Both the position numbers and the translations under genes were made by a program. DNA of 24,778 nucleotides from a virus. Shown in pieces: positions 1,364 to 10,404 of the stretch (its first letter is position 1; every line of letters begins with the position of its first letter). The notes beneath the pieces were generated by a model that worked only from the letters and a program-made list of their open reading frames with translations, searched no databases and was not told the DNA's origin. Location: IMG/VR virus record IMGVR_UViG_3300019132_000064, positions 1 to 24,778 of that record, one strand, 5' to 3'.

Positions 1364-1931
1364 GTTGAGCACCTTCGAGAACCTCCATGACCGTAGCAAT
1401 CAGCCGAATGCCTTCCCGCTCTTCAGACGAGACGTTTTGTTTCAAGGGGTTGGAAGTCGTGGATCGTGCAGAGGGGAGGGGCAGATGCGTGCAATGCAAT
1501 CTATGCAACCCAGCTTCGCCGCTGTTGCCATGGGAGGCTTCGGACGGAATTACCATTTCGTCAGTGAGGCGAGACGACCTCCATCTCGCATCGTTCCCTC
1601 TGGAAGGACCTAGGTCCCACCTTCGGGCCGCCGGAAACGGCGGCCTTTTTCTTTCTCTGCTTTCAGCAAACGGGAAGTCGCAACTAACACTCCCGTAACT
1701 ATAGTCCTTCACCATCCTGATGACGCGGACGTTTGCGGCCGCTGATTTGAGTATGGGGATTTCAATGGCGTTGCTTTTGCTTTCGATTGTTGTGGTCTCG
1801 TTCGTAGCTTCGATTTCAGTCCCGGCTTGGCACATGCTGACTTTGCCAAGAGGCGACCGGCGGTCGCGCACTCCTGAGAGCCTTGCTGCGCTCGAGCGTC
1901 GCGCACAGGGCTGCTGATCTGAACTGGTCAT
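1353..1931 (-). CDS. Doubtful hypothetical ORF between methyltransferase and excisionase
   Basis: A 192-aa minus-strand frame. Its ATG overlaps the stop codon of the methyltransferase (ATGA) and its own stop lies 11 bases past the excisionase ATG, so it would fill the gap exactly. That geometry is the only good argument for it. The translation (MTSSDQQPCARRSSAARL to VMEVLEGAQHDI) resembles no family I know, is Ser/Arg-rich, and runs through a perfect plus-strand terminator hairpin at 1626-1645. The last ~30 residues (SEEREGIRLIATVMEVLEGA) look most protein-like, so a shorter gene is possible. Otherwise the stretch 1400-1927 is an untranslated spacer. Confidence 0.3.
   Translation of the reverse strand: MTSSDQQPCARRSSAARLSGVRDRRSPLGKVSMCQAGTEIEATNETTTIESKSNAIEIPILKSAAANVRVIRMVKDYSYGSVSCDFPFAESRERKRPPFPAARRWDLGPSRGNDARWRSSRLTDEMVIPSEASHGNSGEAGLHRLHCTHLPLPSARSTTSNPLKQNVSSEEREGIRLIATVMEVLEGAQHDI
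1606..1617. repeat. 12-bp perfect palindrome
   Basis: GGACCTAGGTCC is perfectly self-complementary and lies just before the terminator hairpin at 1626. It could be a dimeric protein-binding site; nothing in the sequence says for what. Confidence 0.4.
1626..1655 (+). terminator. Rho-independent terminator (plus strand)
   Basis: A perfect 8-bp GC stem (GGCCGCCG / CGGCGGCC) with a GAAA tetraloop is followed by TTTTTCTTTC. It points rightwards, against the direction of the flanking genes (integrase, excisionase, methyltransferase). No plus-strand gene ends here, so it either stops antisense transcription or ends an unannotated small RNA. Confidence 0.75.
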
Positions 1932-3664
1932 CCGGCAGCCTCCAGCAGTGGGGCCGTAGATGCGCGGCGCCGCACAGGCAGAGCGGCCTCGTCCTCGCGA
2001 TAGTTCGCGCTCACCAACGCGCGAGCCATTACCGGAGAGACGGAATTGCCGCACATGCGGATGGATGCCGTTTTGGTGAGTGTGATCCACTCACCAGTCC
2101 CGACGCATCGGCCGCGATCGATGATGTAGTCGTCGCCGAACCCTTGGGCGCGGAAGAGCTCGCGCGGGGCCAGCATCCGCATGCCGATGTCGGTGACGAC
2201 GTAGGGCTCGCCCTGGACCTGCACCGCGCAGAGGCCGAAGCGGTCCTTGGTCGTGACGGTGTGCAGCGGCTCGCCGAGCTGAGGATCCTGATCGGAGCCG
2301 TAATATTTCGTCAGGAACGCCGCGACATGGGCGGCGTGGGTTCCTTCGGCGCAGACCGTGTTGAGCGGCGCATCAACCGGGCGGTCGCGCCGCTCCGTGC
2401 CCTTCAGGCTCATGAGAAGGGCGGAAACAACCGCCTGGGTGCAGCCCTTCTGGACGATGGTCGAGACCGGCTCCTGCATGGCGTGGCCGACCATGTCGGT
2501 GTTGTGCTGCGCCATGAAGGCGGCGACCAGGGATGCGCCGTTCGCCGTCGGCACGATGACAGGGGCTGGTTCCTCGACTGACCTGGTGCGCGGTTCCTGT
2601 GTCAGGCGCTCGCCATAGCGCGGCACGAGATACGGCGCGACGATGCAATTCTGGTCCTTACGGGAAGCGGTGACCGTGTGCAGCGGGCCTTCGGCATCGC
2701 GATTGCGCCCACCCTGCTGCGCATGGCTGACGAAGGGTGCGACCAATGACATTCCGCCAGCCGTTGTGACAGTGCGGATCGGCTCGTCGAGAGGATGCAC
2801 ACCCTTGCGCGCGGCATCTCCGCTGGTCTGATCGACACGGATAATGAACGGCTTCGGGTTGTCGATCACGTACCGCTTCAGCCCCTTGGCGATGCGCGCC
2901 ATGGTCTTTTCGGCCAGCGGACGGTTCACGCCGACCTTGCGGCCCTCCTCACGGGTCAGGAAGATCGAATGGCACGGCAGCGACCAATCGATGATCTCGG
3001 CCGCCGTGCGCCAGGGCAGCAGCTTGCCGCTCTTCACCGCGTCAGACTTCGGATCGCCGTGTGTCGGCTTCGGCCACACAATCGGGCGGCCGTCGCGCCT
3101 GGCAATCAGGAACAGGCGTTTGCGGATCGTTGGCGCGCCATAGTCGCACGCCCTGAGCTCGCGGTGCTCGACCTTGTATCCGAGGCGCTTGAGCTCGCCT
3201 TCCCATTGCTTGAAGGTCTGGCCTTTGCGCTGCGGACAGGGCTTGCCGTCCTCGGTCAGCGGGCCCCAATCCCTGAATTCCTCGACGTTCTCCAGGATGA
3301 TCACGCGAGGGCGCACCTGCTTGGCCCAGCGCACCACAACCCATGCAAGGTCGCGGATGTTGCGCTTCACCGGCTTGCCGCCCTTGGCCTTTGAAAAGTG
3401 CTTGCAGTCCGGCGAGGCCCAGAGCAGTCCGACCGGACGTCCCTTGGTCACCTCGACGGGATCGACCTTCCAGACATTGTGCGGCAGGTGGAGCGTGTCG
3501 GGATGGTTGGCGTAGTGCATCGCGAGGGCTTCGCGATCGTGGTTGATCGCGATGTCAGGCGAGCGGCCGAGCGCCAGCTCAATGCCTTCGGACGCTCCAC
3601 CGCCGCCGGCGAAGCTATCGACAATCAGCTCAGTCGTTTGTGCTGAATCCATAATATTCTGCAT
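1928..3664 (-). CDS. Phage DNA (cytosine-5) methyltransferase
   Basis: A 578-aa C5-cytosine methyltransferase transferring methyl from AdoMet to cytosine. From the chosen start, motif I is VDSFAGGGGASEG (about 15-27), the catalytic motif IV is the variant SPDCKHFS (nucleophile Cys87) in place of the usual PPCQ, motif VI is LENVEEF (about 124-130), and a motif VIII-like RKRLFLIARRDG follows. The long middle stretch with repeated EPxxTV segments (PLDEPIRTVT, EPVSTIVQ, EPLHTVTT) is the presumed target-recognition region. The ATG at 3664 is chosen because AGGGAAG lies upstream and the operator-like repeats at 3689-3707 sit in front of it; in-frame ATGs also occur at 3652, 3709 and 3721. It stands apart from the left operon, and probably modifies phage DNA against host restriction. 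Confidence 0.92.
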   Translation of the reverse strand: MQNIMDSAQTTELIVDSFAGGGGASEGIELALGRSPDIAINHDREALAMHYANHPDTLHLPHNVWKVDPVEVTKGRPVGLLWASPDCKHFSKAKGGKPVKRNIRDLAWVVVRWAKQVRPRVIILENVEEFRDWGPLTEDGKPCPQRKGQTFKQWEGELKRLGYKVEHRELRACDYGAPTIRKRLFLIARRDGRPIVWPKPTHGDPKSDAVKSGKLLPWRTAAEIIDWSLPCHSIFLTREEGRKVGVNRPLAEKTMARIAKGLKRYVIDNPKPFIIRVDQTSGDAARKGVHPLDEPIRTVTTAGGMSLVAPFVSHAQQGGRNRDAEGPLHTVTASRKDQNCIVAPYLVPRYGERLTQEPRTRSVEEPAPVIVPTANGASLVAAFMAQHNTDMVGHAMQEPVSTIVQKGCTQAVVSALLMSLKGTERRDRPVDAPLNTVCAEGTHAAHVAAFLTKYYGSDQDPQLGEPLHTVTTKDRFGLCAVQVQGEPYVVTDIGMRMLAPRELFRAQGFGDDYIIDRGRCVGTGEWITLTKTASIRMCGNSVSPVMARALVSANYREDEAALPVRRRASTAPLLEAAG

Positions 3665-3688
3665 TTCAGGGGACTTCCCTAATGAACG

Positions 3689-3707
3689 CGTTAACCGTTC
3701 GTTAACC
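3689..3707. promoter_or_regulatory. Direct repeat upstream of the methyltransferase, operator-like
   Basis: CGTTAACC occurs at 3689-3696 and 3700-3707, spaced 11 bp, one helical turn, so a protein could contact both on one face. Each copy contains the palindrome GTTAAC. They lie 25-43 bp upstream of the chosen methyltransferase start. Autoregulation by the methyltransferase or control by a phage regulator are both possible. Confidence 0.45.
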
Positions 3708-3786
3708 ATGATCCCGCACATTCATTGACGCGGGCCGAGTGGGGCATCAGGTTCGCAAGTTTCGGGGGGCGAAAATCATTTCAGAC

Positions 3787-4213: not shown

Positions 4214-4725
4214 GCCGCCCTCCCGACATTCCGCGTCAGCGTCTCAGGCTGAACGCCGATCATCTCAGCCAGCACATCCAGGACCTTGTTCTTGCTCTCT
4301 TGGAAGACCTGCTTGCCCATCGCGGCCTTGGATTGGCTCTTAGCCGTCCAGACCGTCACAACAGCCTCGTGAGTGGTCACGACGGCGAACTCGTCCATGG
4401 GCTTGATGAAGGCCGCGATCCGCTGCGCCTCGGCCTTGGAATTGCAGACGATGGACCGCTCGTCCCGATACCCCGCCTTGATCAGCGCATACTTGCGAAG
4501 ATGCTCGGTCGTGGGGAACCGCTCGGCCATGAGGTCGGGCAGGTTCATCCAGGCTTCCTGAATGGCCGCGAAATAGTGGTTGTGGCTGGCCTGGGAACGG
4601 TGCTCCTGGACGCCAAGGCGGTAGACCTCACCGACCACGAACCAGGCGTCACATTCTCGCCGGGAGCGAGGGTGAGGTACCATGGCCTCGCCCGTCCACT
4701 GGAAGAGAATAGGAGCGGCAGACAT
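4210..4725 (-). CDS. Conserved phage protein, left operon, function unknown
   Basis: A 171-aa protein. The ATG at 4725 overlaps the upstream stop by one base (TGATG); a GTG at 4728 is also in frame. It begins MSAAPILFQWTGEAMVP, continues through an aromatic stretch (SHNHYFAAIQEAWMNLPDLMAERFP), then YALIKAGYRDERSIVC, and ends in a Lys-rich helical part (SQSKAAMGKQVFQESKNKVLDVLAEMIG). The early part resembles DUF1367/NinB-type phage proteins of lambda-like recombination regions, but this is a weak impression. Its position between exonuclease and HNH genes suggests a recombination accessory role. No catalytic motif is visible. Confidence 0.75.
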   Translation of the reverse strand: MSAAPILFQWTGEAMVPHPRSRRECDAWFVVGEVYRLGVQEHRSQASHNHYFAAIQEAWMNLPDLMAERFPTTEHLRKYALIKAGYRDERSIVCNSKAEAQRIAAFIKPMDEFAVVTTHEAVVTVWTAKSQSKAAMGKQVFQESKNKVLDVLAEMIGVQPETLTRNVGRAA

Positions 4726-5357
4726 CACGCAGCCTTCCTCTCATAGAGGGCGGTGAGCTCAGCGACCTTGCCATCCAGCTCGGCCAGGAAGTCGGCGACA
4801 TCGCGCTCGAGTTCCGCAATGCGGGCGTCATCGCGAGGGACGCGCTTCACGAACAGCCGCATGTGCTCGGGCATGCGAGGATCGAAGGAAACGAAGTCGC
4901 ACCACTGGCGGCCGGTGCAGGCCATCTGCCAGAGCATCTGCGTGACGTACTTGCCTGGGACCGTCTGGCTGATGAGGGTGTCGATGTGGGTTGCCGTATT
5001 CGGGCACTTGATTTCTACCAAGCCATCATCACCGACCAGACCGTCCGGGCTGGCGCCAGTCATGCTGATCGTGGGGTGCGGGATGAACCCGACCTGTACG
5101 ACCTCGGAATCCGTGCGGAACTCGTAGGCTATGCGGGCGTCGGGCTCGTTCTCCGTTCCCCACTTCATCGCCGCATTCGTGAACTTCTCGGCGGGCTCGC
5201 CGGTCAGGCGCTCCGCGATCAGTTCGGCCATGTAGTTCACGCGGGATGCGCCCCAGCCGGTCTTCGTGCGAGCAATCACGTCTGCCACACGGGAGGCTGT
5301 GACTTTGCCGACGCGGATGGCCAGCCACTCTTCAGAGCCCTGAATGATCTCGCTCAT
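4725..5357 (-). CDS. YqaJ/lambda-exonuclease family recombinase nuclease
   Basis: A 210-aa protein of the lambda-exonuclease-like (YqaJ) PD-(D/E)XK family. The motif order is clear: QGSEEWLAIRVGKVTASRVADVI near the N-terminus, KWGTENEPDARIAYE (about 65-79), then GASPDGLVGDDGLVEIKCPN with Asp105, Glu115 and Lys117 as metal-binding and catalytic residues. A coiled-coil-like tail (IAELERDVADFLAELDGKVAELTALYERK) follows and may mediate oligomerisation. The enzyme resects double-stranded ends 5' to 3', producing single strands for the neighbouring ERF annealing protein. Its start overlaps the ERF stop by one base (TAATG), so the pair is translationally coupled, as expected for a two-component recombination system. 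Confidence 0.92.
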   Translation of the reverse strand: MSEIIQGSEEWLAIRVGKVTASRVADVIARTKTGWGASRVNYMAELIAERLTGEPAEKFTNAAMKWGTENEPDARIAYEFRTDSEVVQVGFIPHPTISMTGASPDGLVGDDGLVEIKCPNTATHIDTLISQTVPGKYVTQMLWQMACTGRQWCDFVSFDPRMPEHMRLFVKRVPRDDARIAELERDVADFLAELDGKVAELTALYERKAA

Positions 5358-6100
5358 TACTTCGCCCTCTTGGCGTTGAGGGCATCTACGGCCCGCTGGT
5401 ACTGATCGGCCGGCAGGGCTGCGAGGCTCTCCACCTTGAGGTACGCGAGGAACTTCTTCGGATCGGCGCCGACCTCAATGATGAGGTCCTGCAGATCCTT
5501 AACCTGCTCTTCCGAGATGGGAGCAACGCCACCGGCCGCCTTGCCGTCATCATCCTCTCCGCGACTGGTGATGTTCAGCAGGGCGCTTGCCGTATACCGC
5601 TTGCCATAGGAGATGGAGGACCCGACCGCCTGGACGGAGTTCTTGCTGCCGCTGGTATCGATCGGCAGGTGCATCGTCGTCTCTTCGCTATGGCCCTCGC
5701 GGTGAGAGAGGACGCCGGTCACAGTGATGCGGCCCTCTTCCTGTCCGGTGCGGAAGCTCAGGGCGAAACCGTGCTTGGATAGAACCGGCTTGATGGCGTC
5801 GTTGATGTCCTCCCAGAGGGCATAGGTGCTCTGGACACGCCCGGACCGGTCCTTGATGCCGCCGCGCTCGGCGATGACCGGGAGTTCCGGCTGCATGCGC
5901 GCCAAGTCAGCAGCATAGGCCGCCCGGGCGTTGCGCTGCATGATCCGCTCCTGCATCTCGAGGAGGCGCTCCATCTTGTCGATGTCGACGGCAGGGTTGA
6001 TGGCAGCGCGTTCAATGACCTGAATGATGGCCGCGCTCTCAGGAACGGCAGGTGCGCTGACAGGCTCTTGGACAGCGACGGCGTTGGATTGCTTGCTCAT
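5357..6100 (-). CDS. ERF family single-strand annealing protein
   Basis: A 247-aa ERF-superfamily recombinase. The core starts near residue 55 (RNARAAYAADLARMQPELPVIAERGGIKD) and runs through TYALWEDINDAIKPVLSKHGFALSF and VTGVLSHREGHSEETTMHLPID to the signature SVQAVGSSISYGKRYTASALL. That is followed by an acidic stretch (RGEDDDGKA) and a C-terminal helical domain ending DALNAKRAK. It binds and anneals complementary single strands and works with the exonuclease encoded next. The true start is the ATG at 6100, which overlaps the stop of the preceding 47-aa gene (TAATG); the open frame runs further upstream but is covered there by other small genes. Confidence 0.93.
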   Translation of the reverse strand: MSKQSNAVAVQEPVSAPAVPESAAIIQVIERAAINPAVDIDKMERLLEMQERIMQRNARAAYAADLARMQPELPVIAERGGIKDRSGRVQSTYALWEDINDAIKPVLSKHGFALSFRTGQEEGRITVTGVLSHREGHSEETTMHLPIDTSGSKNSVQAVGSSISYGKRYTASALLNITSRGEDDDGKAAGGVAPISEEQVKDLQDLIIEVGADPKKFLAYLKVESLAALPADQYQRAVDALNAKRAK

Positions 6101-6973: not shown

Positions 6974-7401
6974 TAGGCGGCTTCCTCGTTCGCAAGGCCA
7001 AACGGGAGCGAAGCACCTTCGGGAAGCACCCACATGTGATACATGTCGGCTTCGTCCACGAGGTTAGATCGTGCAGGCATGACTTCGACAGCTACGCGCT
7101 CCGTTCCGAAGAGTTCGTCCTTGATACGTTGCTTGTCACGCCACGGCGGCTCAAGGTTTGATGCAGTGCGGATAGCGCAGTGGAGGACTTCGCCTTCCTG
7201 CGTAGGGACGGGGCGGACTAGAACCGCGTAAAGCTGGTTCCTGTATGCGTACCGGATGCGCCTGCACCAGCCCGTGCCGGGGATGCCATGGGGGAGATCG
7301 ATCCGATCCCATGCGCCCCATTTGCCGGAGCGGATGGCTTGCCTCTCCATGGCATAGGCAGCACGGCGCTGGTCGCGAGTTCCCGAAATGCCAAGGCCCA
7401 T
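6973..7401 (-). CDS. DUF7694-like phage protein
   Basis: A 142-aa protein with the start taken at MGLGISGTRDQRRAAYAMER, directly after the stop of the 36-aa membrane peptide (one-base gap) and preceded by GGTGGGGG. An ATG at 7446 would add 15 residues. It has a compact, aromatic C-terminal domain (RNQLYAVLVRPV, HCAIRTASNLEPPWRDKQRIKDE, ADMYHMWVLPEGASLPFGL). The MWVLPEGxxLPFGL ending is a signature I associate with DUF7694 proteins of rhizobial phages, whose biochemical function I do not know. It belongs to the left early operon. Confidence 0.75.
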   Translation of the reverse strand: MGLGISGTRDQRRAAYAMERQAIRSGKWGAWDRIDLPHGIPGTGWCRRIRYAYRNQLYAVLVRPVPTQEGEVLHCAIRTASNLEPPWRDKQRIKDELFGTERVAVEVMPARSNLVDEADMYHMWVLPEGASLPFGLANEEAA

Positions 7402-7402
7402 C

Positions 7403-7513
7403 TCAGTAGCCCCCACCGAGAGCCACACATCCGAGGCCAACAACACCGATCAGGAACACGACGGCAAAGCCATCGCGGGCGACTTCAAGAAGGAAGGTGG
7501 AGAGGGGTTGCAT
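7403..7513 (-). CDS. 36-aa membrane micro-protein, first gene of left operon
   Basis: Begins MQPLSTFLLEVARDG, followed by one hydrophobic span (FAVVFLIGVVGLGCVALGGG). It starts about 24 bases after the predicted start point of the leftward promoter and stops one base before the next gene. The ribosome binding site is poor (GGATGAG). A first-expressed, single-span peptide would fit a host-takeover or exclusion role, but that is only a guess. Confidence 0.5.
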   Translation of the reverse strand: MQPLSTFLLEVARDGFAVVFLIGVVGLGCVALGGGY

Positions 7514-7543
7514 GGAGGCTCATCCGTGGTGTTTGGATGAGCA

Positions 7544-7571
7544 ACCATACCAATTCGGTATTAACTGTCAA
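7544..7571 (-). promoter_or_regulatory. Leftward early promoter (PL-like)
   Basis: On the minus strand, TTGACA (7571-7566) is followed after 16 bases by TATGGT (7549-7544). The -35 box is a perfect consensus. One operator lies between the boxes and a second abuts the -35 box, so repressor binding would block RNA polymerase. It drives the left operon that ends at 3836. Confidence 0.75.
7547..7561. promoter_or_regulatory. Repressor operator OL1
   Basis: ATACC-AATTC-GGTAT: perfect 5-base arms around a 5-base centre. It matches the sites beside cI and lies in the spacer of the leftward promoter. Confidence 0.75.
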
Positions 7572-7585
7572 TACCAAATCGGAAT
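7571..7585. promoter_or_regulatory. Repressor operator OL2
   Basis: ATACC-AAATC-GGAAT: one mismatch in the second arm. It is 24 bp centre-to-centre from OL1 and overlaps the first base of the -35 box, so cooperative binding with OL1 is plausible. Confidence 0.68.
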
Positions 7586-7680
7586 TGATTAAGTATGAAG
7601 AAGTGGCCGAGATTGTGAACTATTGTGGAAAACGATTTCAGACTCGACTCTTCTTTCACCATTCGGCAGCCTGAGAACAT

Positions 7681-7953
7681 ATGCAGAACATCGGGGCCAA
7701 AATGGAAGCAAGGCACTATGTGAGTGAGTTACGGCAGGCGAGGGCGCTGGACATCGTTTGCGAGGATTGCGGGCGCACCAGACGCTTCCAGCGGCGCTAC
7801 CTGTTGGAACTGGACATGGAAGGATTCACGAGCTTTCACCAGCTCGGTAGCAAGCTCGTATGCAAGCACTGCCGGGAACGTCGCGGGGAAGGGCGGAACA
7901 TCTCTCTTAAGCCCCGCTGGTTCTCTCACCTACGGGCGACGGGGCGGCACTAG
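7681..7953 (+). CDS. Small zinc-ribbon protein in the immunity region
   Basis: A 90-aa protein beginning MQNIGAKMEARHYVSELRQA. Residues ~25-29 (VCEDC) and ~60-64 (VCKHC) form two Cys-x2-Cys pairs about 33 residues apart, a zinc ribbon. Between them lies RRFQRRYLLELDMEGFTSFHQLG. A second ATG at 7702 (MEARHY) could be the true start, since no strong ribosome site precedes the first. It is transcribed away from the leftward operators and ends just before the shared terminator at 7965. A regulatory role is possible. I know similar small zinc proteins in rhizobial genomes but not their function. Confidence 0.7.
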   Translation: MQNIGAKMEARHYVSELRQARALDIVCEDCGRTRRFQRRYLLELDMEGFTSFHQLGSKLVCKHCRERRGEGRNISLKPRWFSHLRATGRH

Positions 7954-7958
7954 GCAGC

Positions 7959-7984
7959 AAAAAACCCCGGTCTTTCGACCGGGG
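7959..7984 (-). terminator. Terminator of the cI-lipoprotein transcript
   Basis: On the minus strand CCCCGGTC-GAAA-GACCGGGG is followed by TTTTTT: an 8-bp stem with a GNRA tetraloop and a run of six T. It lies between two convergent genes and is strong in the minus direction. In the plus direction the stem may also slow transcription from the zinc-ribbon gene. Confidence 0.88.
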
Positions 7985-8002
7985 CTCTAAATCACAACGC
8001 AA

Positions 8003-8452
8003 TTATGAGGTCGGCGGAGCTTCCTCCTTGACGGGGCCCCGGGCGGGTCGCTTGGTCGGCTTGCCCCGAAGCACAAGGGGTTCCAGTCTGACTGAGACTG
8101 GGTTCGGGTAATGCTCCAGGGTTGAGCCAGTCGCGGCATCAACACCCATGCCGACAAGGCCTCCAATGAGCACGTTGCCGGCAAAGCCCGCAGCGCCGCT
8201 GCCAGCCACGCGGGTCTGAACCATCACGTCCTGGCTATGGTAGCCCTCCTTGGTGAAGGTGGCGACGAACTCCGACTTGCGGCTCACCTCAAGCGTGCAT
8301 GGCGTTGTAGGGCAGGTGAGGCCGGTCGACGTCCTCATGGCTGCCGGCGGATCGGAATCAAAGGTGACCTGTTCCGTTGTGCCCCGTGTGACGGTGGCGC
8401 AGGCCCCTAAGGAAAGTGTGCTCGCAACAACTGCGAGAAAATAAATGCGCAT
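8003..8452 (-). CDS. Lipoprotein, PEGA-like, lysogeny cargo gene
   Basis: A 149-aa exported lipoprotein. The signal MRIYFLAVVASTLSLGAC ends in a lipobox (LGAC), with the lipidated Cys at position 18. After it comes a small beta-rich domain (TEQVTFDSDPPAAM to EVSRKSEFVATFTKEGYHSQ) resembling PEGA-type surface domains, a Gly-rich hydrophobic stretch (GSGAAGFAGNVLIGGLVGMG), and a basic Pro/Lys tail. Two further Cys (47 and 52) flank the TCPTTPC loop and may form a disulphide. It lies downstream of cI on the same strand with a 151-bp gap and ends at the strong terminator. It may therefore be expressed in the lysogen, as a lambda rex-like or other lysogenic-conversion gene. Confidence 0.8.
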   Translation of the reverse strand: MRIYFLAVVASTLSLGACATVTRGTTEQVTFDSDPPAAMRTSTGLTCPTTPCTLEVSRKSEFVATFTKEGYHSQDVMVQTRVAGSGAAGFAGNVLIGGLVGMGVDAATGSTLEHYPNPVSVRLEPLVLRGKPTKRPARGPVKEEAPPTS

Positions 8453-8603
8453 TGGTGCCCCCAGTATCCGGCGCTGGAAGGTTATCTCTTGCCGGCAACG
8501 GGATCACGCTAAGCATTCGGGCCGTAGCTGGACAAGCTAAACTAACGATCTGTTAACATTTTTGAGGGGTGGGTATCGGTGCCCGAGATGACACCAGGCG
8601 CCA

Positions 8604-9290
8604 TTAGACACCAAGAAGTTCATCTGTCGGGATCACCCGCAAGATGCGCTTTACCTTGGTCATCTCAAACTCAAGATCTTTAGCCGGATTGAACTGCGAA
8701 ACAACCAGCCGAGTCGGTGTCTGCTTCACCAAGCGCTTGATGTAGCCCTTGCCCGCCTCGCTTTCGCTCTCGCCGTGCAGCTCGACAACCACGTATTCGC
8801 CTGTACGAGGCTTCCTGTGTGGGTCCACGTAGAGCCGTTCCCCAGGTTCAAACTTCGGGAACATGCTGTCGTTTTCGACATAGAGGCAGAACACATCCTT
8901 CCGGGTCGCAATGCCTGGGGGGCGTGGGGCCATGTCGATCTGCTCGCCATTAAACCGGAAGTCGCCATCCTCATCCCCACCGCCTACAGCTGTCCCATAC
9001 ACAGGGACATCCCGAGGGCCGCCGAATCGTTGGTTGGTAGGCACAGACTCGACCCTGGATAGGTCAACATCGGGTGGCGTGGTCGCGCCGGATTGATGGC
9101 TCCGATCGGGAAAAAGGATTTCCTCGGCAGTGACCCCAAGGTGAGGAGCAAGCCTCTCGGCCCATGCCTTCGTGAGCTCACGTTCGCCGTCCTCAAGGCG
9201 CTTGATCTGCGGCTGACTGGTGCCGGCAAGCGACGCGAGTTTTGCCTGTGAAAGGCCTTTTTGCTCTCGGAGGGCTCTTAAGCTGGGCAT
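8604..9290 (-). CDS. cI: Prophage repressor, XRE-HTH plus S24 peptidase domain
   Basis: A 228-aa repressor. Residues ~3-60 are a helix-turn-helix (LRALREQKGLSQAKLASLAGTSQPQIKRLEDGERELT). A linker follows, then a LexA/S24 domain with catalytic Ser142 in VENDSMFPKFEPGE and Lys185 in GYIKRL. The usual Ala-Gly or Cys-Gly self-cleavage bond appears as Val102-Gly103 (GTAVGGGD), which may slow SOS-dependent cleavage. The start is taken at MPSLRALREQ (9290), just before the HTH; in-frame ATGs at 9353 and 9425 would run across the operators. The mRNA has no good ribosome site at 9290, so it may be leaderless or start at 9353. One operator (9289-9303) overlaps the start codon, suggesting autoregulation. 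Confidence 0.92.
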   Translation of the reverse strand: MPSLRALREQKGLSQAKLASLAGTSQPQIKRLEDGERELTKAWAERLAPHLGVTAEEILFPDRSHQSGATTPPDVDLSRVESVPTNQRFGGPRDVPVYGTAVGGGDEDGDFRFNGEQIDMAPRPPGIATRKDVFCLYVENDSMFPKFEPGERLYVDPHRKPRTGEYVVVELHGESESEAGKGYIKRLVKQTPTRLVVSQFNPAKDLEFEMTKVKRILRVIPTDELLGV

Positions 9291-9303
9291 ACCAAATTGG
9301 TAA
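9289..9303. promoter_or_regulatory. Repressor operator OR-a (at the cI start)
   Basis: ATACC-AAATT-GGTAA, one mismatch in the right arm. It overlaps the cI ATG by two bases, so its occupancy should repress cI itself. Confidence 0.7.
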
Positions 9304-9325
9304 TCCACAGGCCCAACAGCGTCTA

Positions 9326-9340
9326 ACTCCAAATTGGTAT
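9326..9340. promoter_or_regulatory. Repressor operator OR-b (middle)
   Basis: ACTCC-AAATT-GGTAT: a good right arm but a weak left arm, hence probably the lowest-affinity of the three sites. It is centred 37 bp from OR-a and 33 bp from OR-c. Confidence 0.55.
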
Positions 9341-9347
9341 GTGATTG

Positions 9348-9376
9348 TTGCATGTCCGATACCGTTTTGGTATTAA
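9348..9376 (+). promoter_or_regulatory. Rightward early promoter (PR-like) for cro
   Basis: TTGCAT (9348-9353) and TATTAA (9371-9376) are separated by 17 bases. The operator at 9359-9373 fills the spacer and overlaps the -10 box. Transcription would start near 9382-9384, at or next to the cro ATG, so the cro mRNA may be leaderless. Confidence 0.6.
9359..9373. promoter_or_regulatory. Repressor operator OR-c (in the cro promoter)
   Basis: ATACC-GTTTT-GGTAT has perfect arms. It sits over the rightward promoter, so repressor bound here should silence cro and the right operon. Confidence 0.75.
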
Positions 9377-9383
9377 TGAGGGC

Positions 9384-9617
9384 ATGAAGCTTGCTGATTA
9401 TCTCTCGAAACACGGCCTTACCCATGCGGATTTCGCGTCCAAGATTGGGGCGTCACAGGCCGATATAAGCCGCTACATCAGTGGGGCGCGCACCCCGCGA
9501 CCGGCTCGAATGGCGCTGATTACCTTGGCTACCAAAGGCAAGGTTACAGCAAACGACTTCATTCCGCCCCCTACTCAAAAGAGGGTGGTCAGCGGCACCC
9601 AAGATGAGGCCGCGTGA
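9384..9617 (+). CDS. cro: Cro-like HTH regulator
   Basis: A 77-aa protein consisting almost entirely of a helix-turn-helix: MKLADYLSKHGLTHADFASKIGASQADISRYISGARTPRP, followed by a helical tail ALITLATKGKVTANDFIPP. The pattern matches YdaS/Cro-type phage regulators. It is divergent from cI across the three-operator region and is the first gene of the rightward transcript, which identifies it as the Cro counterpart. The start at 9384 is chosen because the HTH begins there; an upstream in-frame start at 9345 would run through the promoter. GAGGG lies only one base before the ATG, too close for normal use. Confidence 0.85.
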   Translation: MKLADYLSKHGLTHADFASKIGASQADISRYISGARTPRPARMALITLATKGKVTANDFIPPPTQKRVVSGTQDEAA

Positions 9618-9904
9618 TGGGTGCCATTCTCATTCATCCCATCGGCTCTTCCTCCCTGGCTGATGGCACCTGCGCGGGCGACCATGTGCAACCGTTCCCT
9701 CCGGTCGCCCGCGTCTTTCTTTTTCTCTCCACTCTTCGGCAACAGCTGCTTCAGCACGCGGCGAATGTGAGCGCGCACCTGTCTGTCGCTCGCGCCCTTC
9801 GTCTCTTTGCCGTCGCCCATCGTTCCGGCCCCCTGTCTACGGCTGCTGTTTTCGCACCCGGCCTGTCCACCGTCACAGCAAATATTCCTGAGATCGAAGC
9901 ATGA
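9617..9904 (+). CDS. Doubtful ORF between cro and the CII-like gene
   Basis: A 95-aa frame starting MGAILIHPIGSSSLADGTCA. It overlaps the cro stop by one base (TGATG) and the next gene's start by four (ATGA), as a real operon gene would. Against it, a strong terminator hairpin (9673-9713 plus T-rich tail) lies inside, and its product (Ala/Leu/Ser-rich) matches nothing I know. An opposing minus-strand frame (9820-9575) begins MGDGKETKGASDRQVRAHIRR and also has coding-like GC-rich third positions. I regard this mainly as a regulatory spacer that may encode one of the two. Confidence 0.3.
   Translation: MGAILIHPIGSSSLADGTCAGDHVQPFPPVARVFLFLSTLRQQLLQHAANVSAHLSVARALRLFAVAHRSGPLSTAAVFAPGLSTVTANIPEIEA
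9673..9724 (+). terminator. tR1-like terminator after cro
   Basis: A perfect 11-bp stem (CGCGGGCGACC / GGTCGCCCGCG) with a 19-base loop is followed by TCTTTCTTTTT. It lies 56 bp after the cro stop and before the replication genes, the position of lambda tR1. Right-operon expression would then need read-through, antitermination or another promoter in 9725-9900, where I see no clear one. Confidence 0.82.
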
Positions 9905-10404
9905 ACACGCGCTATCTCGCCCGCATCGATTACGACCGCCTGAAGAAGGCGCAAGACGAGCTGATTAAGCATCCGGAGGTTGGAGGCCCGAAGGCGGCGG
10001 CCGAGGTCACACGTGTCGATCCGGCCCGTCTCTCCCGCTACGGCAGCCCGCATGAGACGACCAACGCACCAGTTGATGTGATCGCCGATCTGGAGGCGAA
10101 GGCGAATGCGCCTATCGTCACCCGTATTCTGGCGGATCTGCATGACTGCGATCTCGTCCCGCGTGACCGCTCTCTCAAGCAGCAGTCCGACTATGATGAG
10201 CATGCCACTGACCTGACCCGCGCGGCCTGTGCACTGATGGTGAAGCTGCAAGAGGCCCGCAAAGACGGCATTGATGCCGTGGAGCTCGTTCAGCTGGAAT
10301 CCCTCGCTACGCAGCTGCAGATCGAGATTGCCGAGTTCCGCCGCGATGCCAAGCGCGATCTGAGCGCCCCGGTGCCGATGCGCCGGACTGGCGGTGCAGC
10401 ATGA
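9901..10404 (+). CDS. CII-like phage regulatory protein
   Basis: A 167-aa protein beginning MNTRYLARIDYDRLKKAQDE. Residues ~20-60 hold a diverged HTH (GGPKAAAEVTRVDPARLSRYGSPHET), then PVDVIADLEAKANAPIVTRILADLHD, which I associate with the phage regulatory protein CII (CP76) type. The C-terminal half is a long helix (LVQLESLATQLQIEIAEFRRDAKRD) likely to oligomerise. It is the first conserved gene after the tR1-like terminator, where lambda carries cII. A role in the lysis-lysogeny decision is inferred from position and pattern. Confidence 0.65.
   Translation: MNTRYLARIDYDRLKKAQDELIKHPEVGGPKAAAEVTRVDPARLSRYGSPHETTNAPVDVIADLEAKANAPIVTRILADLHDCDLVPRDRSLKQQSDYDEHATDLTRAACALMVKLQEARKDGIDAVELVQLESLATQLQIEIAEFRRDAKRDLSAPVPMRRTGGAA

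Follow-up and report, generated by a model that had tools for sequence, protein, structure and literature searches.

The viral DNA analyzed here (IMG/VR record IMGVR_UViG_3300019132_000064, 24,778 nucleotides, hereafter the window) very probably carries a lambda-type immunity switch, in which a CI repressor acts on five ATACC-N5-GGTAT operators to block the early promoters PL and PR, to activate its own promoter PRM and to shut off cI at OR3. The genes that point to such a switch are cI itself, which encodes an HTH and a Peptidase_S24 domain, a divergent cro, a CII-like gene after cro and an Erf gene in the PL operon. Because more than 30 related loci in phages and prophages share this layout, we regard it as a real circuit of a known kind with a different operator sequence; it is ordinary in kind, and its geometry is well conserved and testable. 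The lambda switch is the textbook circuit, and the generality of its fine geometry is less clear. In the more than 30 alphaproteobacterial phage and prophage loci considered here the operator is unrelated, yet OR2 and OL stand at lambda distances, and the family makes shared positive autoregulation, negative autoregulation and looping testable. It also provides candidate orthogonal repressor-operator pairs for alphaproteobacteria.

A first-pass annotation had placed five operators at positions 7547, 7571, 9289, 9326 and 9359, with about 35 bp between the OR sites and 1.8 kb between OL and OR. All five sites were recovered at these positions, with 0, 1, 1, 2 and 0 mismatches to ATACC-N5-GGTAT respectively, and nothing else in the whole 24,778-base record matches with two mismatches or fewer. 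The distances agree as well, the centre-to-centre spacing being 33 bp for OR1-OR2 and 37 bp for OR2-OR3, with 1812 bp from the centre of OL1 to that of OR1. At one mismatch or fewer, four sites are observed where 0.12 would be expected, and not one of 100 dinucleotide shuffles reaches four; at two mismatches or fewer, five sites are observed against 2.4 expected, and 8 of 100 shuffles reach five. Since the latter count is unremarkable, the site at 9326 (OR2) is not significant by count alone. What rescues it is its placement, since relatives keep a site at -43, together with its score with a matrix derived from the relatives only, with the window left out. In a scan of the whole record with this 15-bp matrix the window's five sites rank first, at 24.8, 24.4, 22.3, 21.0 and 17.1 bits, the weakest being OR2, and the next best match scores 8.1 bits; the absence of comparable matches elsewhere in the record is in line with the earlier proposal that these five sites define the repressor regulon.

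Two of the operators lie, as had been proposed, at a leftward TTGACA promoter. PL (7544..7571, minus strand; TTGACA, a 16-bp spacer and TATGGT) is the top promoter match in 7300-9500 and faces the recombination operon. OL1 (7547..7561, ATACCAATTCGGTAT) lies inside the PL spacer and touches the PL -10, and OL2 (7571..7585), at 24 bp from OL1 by centres, adjoins the PL -35 with one T in common, so that beyond cI the window has a further cluster of operators, at a leftward early promoter. CI bound at OL1 and OL2 would block PL and, with it, the early operon that includes the Erf recombinase. The Erf-like single-strand annealing protein is encoded at 5357..6037 on the minus strand (Pfam ERF, 1.5e-18; phrog_155, 8e-48), and by eye the next ORF in the leftward operon beyond it (4725-5357) resembles a YqaJ-type exonuclease. 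On the 3' side of cI lies a small lipoprotein-like gene (8003..8452, minus strand; phrog_6823, function unknown) with a lipobox, LGAC, in its translation. This gene occupies the position of lambda rexAB, and its expression in lysogens is possible. A putative intrinsic terminator (7958..7989, minus strand; GC stem, GAAA loop and U run, z = -5.0), not picked up by a consensus scan of the region, likely terminates the cI-lipoprotein transcript ahead of OL. At the far end of the window, a tyrosine-integrase-like gene at positions 1-1175 is divided between two minus-strand frames that overlap (705-1175 and 1-813), possibly through a frameshift, and a large minus-strand ORF (1928-3721) resembles, by eye, a C5 cytosine DNA methyltransferase.

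The cI gene (8604..9290, minus strand) encodes a repressor of 228 aa with an N-terminal HTH (GTSQPQIKRLE; Pfam HTH_31/HTH_3) and a C-terminal Peptidase_S24 domain (phrog_4 for the protein), and a dimer of this protein would use that HTH to bind the five operators. The S24 domain has AVGG close to where cleavage is expected, as does that of phage 16-3, and not the canonical Ala-Gly; RecA-stimulated cleavage is only putative. Longer upstream cI starts, in an ORF that extends to 9425, were rejected because the alignment with relatives begins at the ATG at 9290 and because OR1 and OR2 lie within that stretch. PRM (9297..9325, minus strand) comprises a -35 element TAGACG (9325-9320), a 17-bp spacer and a -10 element TACCAA (9302-9297), and is weak, with 7/12 consensus matches in the window and 7-9/12 across the family. 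The best PRM match places the -35 element at position -35 and the -10 element at position -12, both in the window and in most relatives; transcription would then begin with the A of the cI ATG, and PRM is thus predicted to drive a leaderless cI mRNA.

Around PRM and PR the three right-hand operators are arranged as follows. OR3 (9289..9303) covers both the PRM -10 and the start codon of cI, and CI (or Cro) bound there would turn cI off by negative autoregulation. OR2 (9326..9340), centred at -43 from the cI start, adjoins the PRM -35, its last base standing directly before that element and its degenerate half pointing towards PRM; CI at this site would be placed to contact RNA polymerase and activate the weak promoter. 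OR1 (9359..9373) lies inside the PR spacer and overlaps the PR -10, and CI bound there would block PR and thereby cro, the cII-like gene and later genes. PR itself (9348..9376, plus strand), read directly from the sequence, consists of TTGCAT (9348-9353), a 17-bp spacer and TATTAA (9371-9376), and the cro ATG starts 8 nt past its -10. The cro-like gene (9384..9617, plus strand) encodes a 77-aa HTH protein (HTH_3, 4.7e-5; phrog_35, 8e-7) and is followed on its 3' side by the gene for a CII-like activator (9901..10404, plus strand; phrog_101, 1.8e-7); the surroundings of cI, cro and cII yielded no CII-type TTGC-N6-TTGC pair. Three sites had been described as lying between divergent cI and cro, and all three do fall in the cI-cro interval, but the inner one (9289-9303) is not purely intergenic because it overlaps the cI ATG, whose A is at 9290.

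CI protein searches returned 18 viral and 12 genome loci, including Methylorubrum, Rhizobium, Pseudochrobactrum, Paenochrobactrum and Bartonella. Relatives of the CI DNA-binding domain are mostly from Hyphomicrobiales, and judging by them the host of the window phage is presumably an alphaproteobacterium. Operator positions were scored in 34 distinct loci with a window-type CI N-terminal domain, drawn from the protein searches and from later scans. In nearly all 34 loci OR1 is centred between -75 and -79 (with three mismatches or fewer in 33), and OR2 at -43 or -44 from the cI start, again with three mismatches or fewer in 33 of the 34, L017 being without OR2. OR3 takes one of two positions, -6 in 14 loci (13 and the window) and -18 to -20 in nine further ones, and is absent from the remaining loci (some Brucellaceae-type, most Bartonella and others). 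Of the 34 loci, 26 have an OL pair at 24-25 bp, almost always with GGTA-TTGAC as the junction between OL2 and the PL -35, and nearly all relatives outside Bartonella have a site equivalent to OL1. The ATACC of OR2 begins exactly at -50 or -51 in 24 of 25 diverged loci, the neighbouring spacer being only 29% identical pairwise. The OR2 half beside the PRM -35 is degenerate family-wide, as expected if bases or contacts are shared with the promoter. Four Brucellaceae-type loci (L015, L027, L028 and L029, with CI at 2961, 5001, 3530 and 5001, respectively) encode a CI of 99 aa that consists of the N-terminal domain only, and they retain OR1, OR2 and OL despite the missing S24 domain.

Compared with lambda, for which site positions were taken from the lambda annotation (OR3 at -19, OR2 at -42, OR1 at -66 and 24 bp between OL1 and OL2), the window has the same gene order (PL-rex position-cI-OR-cro-cII), likewise three OR sites, the same distance between OL1 and OL2 and nearly the same position of OR2 (-43). 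Lambda OR3 is close to the -19 class of the relatives, whereas OR3 of the window, at -6, covers the start codon. In lambda PL, as in the window, the -35 adjoins OL2 and OL1 lies in the spacer, and the lambda cI mRNA is leaderless, as predicted for that of the window. The two differ in operator sequence, that of lambda being unrelated to the 15 bp of the window, in the number of OL sites (three in lambda's own layout, two in the window), and in their CI proteins, whose HTH domains show distant similarity only. The reading of the two clusters as lambda-like OL and OR thus holds, and is strengthened by the relatives, with amendments: the OR spacing is 33/37 bp, compared to 24/23 bp in lambda, and OR3 is not universal. 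With OR1 and OR2 33 bp apart and not 24 bp, and OR2 and OR3 37 bp apart, adjacent cooperativity of the lambda kind is not assured, and cooperativity may be arranged differently from lambda.

The nearest studied alphaproteobacterial switch is that of phage 16-3, whose operator geometry was taken from the annotation of its record. Phage 16-3 is, like the window phage, an alphaproteobacterial phage with annotated OL and OR pairs; the end of its Pc -10 lies 7 nt upstream of the c start, and its C repressor is about 37% identical to window CI in the C-terminal domain (31% in a full-length alignment). The N-terminal domain of C, however, gave no tblastn match to window CI at 1e-3, and the sites number two in OR and two in OL, against three and two in the window, with the OL sites 17 bp apart directly after c and an otherwise different geometry. 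Lacking both detectable HTH homology and the 16-3 site geometry, the window falls outside the 16-3 C repressor family. One could still read the window as a looser version of the 16-3 switch, with CI blocking PL and PR by simple repression, with no activation of PRM from OR2 and with no looping. We consider this unlikely, though deserving of serious weight: OR2 is the weakest of the window's sites, 16-3 is annotated with two OR and two OL sites and has a homologous C-terminal domain, and the distance from the cI start to OL varies among the relatives between about 0.66 and 3.95 kb, roughly sixfold, so that a looping distance is not obviously constrained. Against simple repression stands the fixed position of OR2 at -43/-44 beside a weak PRM, which is the activation geometry of lambda (-42) and is not needed for plain repression. 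Within the lambda-type switch that we favor, looping between OL and OR is possible.

Loci at which the two CI domains have parted company bear on which of them selects the operator. At L007 and L008 the CI C-terminal domain matches that of the window at 90-92% while the HTH is unrelated, and no ATACC site with one mismatch or fewer occurs anywhere in either record. Upstream of cI at these two loci (4925-4960), only CCGAAATT-like palindromes are present. L009 resembles L007 and L008 and has a single ATACC site, which lies outside the locus. At L013 to L018 and others, only the CI N-terminal domain matches that of the window, and the operators are mostly kept. Through these natural domain swaps operator choice goes with the N-terminal domain, which would be the part of CI that sets it. 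The repressors of Rhizobium phage RHph_Y25 and Microcystis phage Mae-JY35 are 62-66% identical to window CI in the N-terminal domain, with a C-terminal domain that is diverged or unrelated, and go with the same OR and OL operators, RHph_Y25 having OR3 at -19 and Mae-JY35 no OR3-like match. Among named phage repressors whose DNA-binding domain has been solved, the closest is that of phage 434 (E = 4e-4), whose helix 3, TTQQSIEQLE, aligns with TSQPQIKRLE of window CI. The 434 operators read ACAA...TTGT, as against ATACC...GGTAT in the window.

That the sites chiefly serve Cro, and that CI binds them more weakly or has its sites elsewhere, we hold to be very improbable. Such a reading could draw on the location of cro next to the sites, on the SQ-x-x-[IV]-x-R that helix 3 of Cro has in common with CI, and on the common sites used by lambda CI and Cro; but Cro sequences differ strongly between loci with the same sites, whereas the CI recognition helix TSQPQI[KR]RLE is nearly invariant across them, and in L007 and L008, where the N-terminal domain of CI is a different one, the sites are missing.

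Searches of 20 whole records found sites with one mismatch or fewer almost only at OL and OR among the matches listed, with one or two extra such sites, among the matches listed, in G009, G010, G011 and G014. In a reverse test, IMG/VR was searched blind for the OL pair alone, with the same pattern reversed as control; the OL-pair pattern gave 27 loci and the reversed control none. A window-type CI N-terminal relative is encoded in the locus or record for at least 21 of the 27, and eight of these at least 21 records were already among the protein-search matches. Among the OL-pair matches, L038/L043 and L054, without TTGAC and without CI, were set aside as probable chance matches or tandem repeats. 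L045 (644-682) and L057 (5899-5937) have a 24-bp operator pair over TTGACA and further sites, together with HTH proteins without detectable relationship to the HTH of window CI. Because these two loci share the OL geometry without a detectably related HTH, the ATACC motif is not exclusive to the window-type repressor, which suggests that it originated, or was taken up, in other settings too. That the sites are chance palindromes, or were inherited in common without having a function, can be dismissed as vanishingly improbable, for although the weak site at 9326 is at chance level by count, the sites lie exclusively at promoters, are separated from the next best match by a wide score gap (17.1 vs 8.1 bits), are conserved against a diverged background and were found 27 times against 0 in the blind OL-pair scan.

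For the Hyphomicrobiales phages at large, we see an even chance that the operator and the N-terminal domain form a widespread cassette that keeps lambda geometry (OR2 at -43, the OL pair at 24 bp and a leaderless cI), while C-terminal domains have been exchanged and OR3 has moved over the start codon, where cI is possibly shut off by a block of transcription start at the first codon. In the part of the literature on leaderless CI or lambda-like OL/OR in alphaproteobacteria that was covered, we found no paper describing the ATACC operator. A terminase comparison returned only HK97/HK022-type relatives, at below 60% identity. Finally, two loci combine an alphaproteobacterial-type immunity region with another host label, namely L064 (PP438426, Microcystis phage Mae-JY35) and L027 (a contig labelled Bacillus subtilis SK6B4), and for both a mislabelled host or contamination seems likely.
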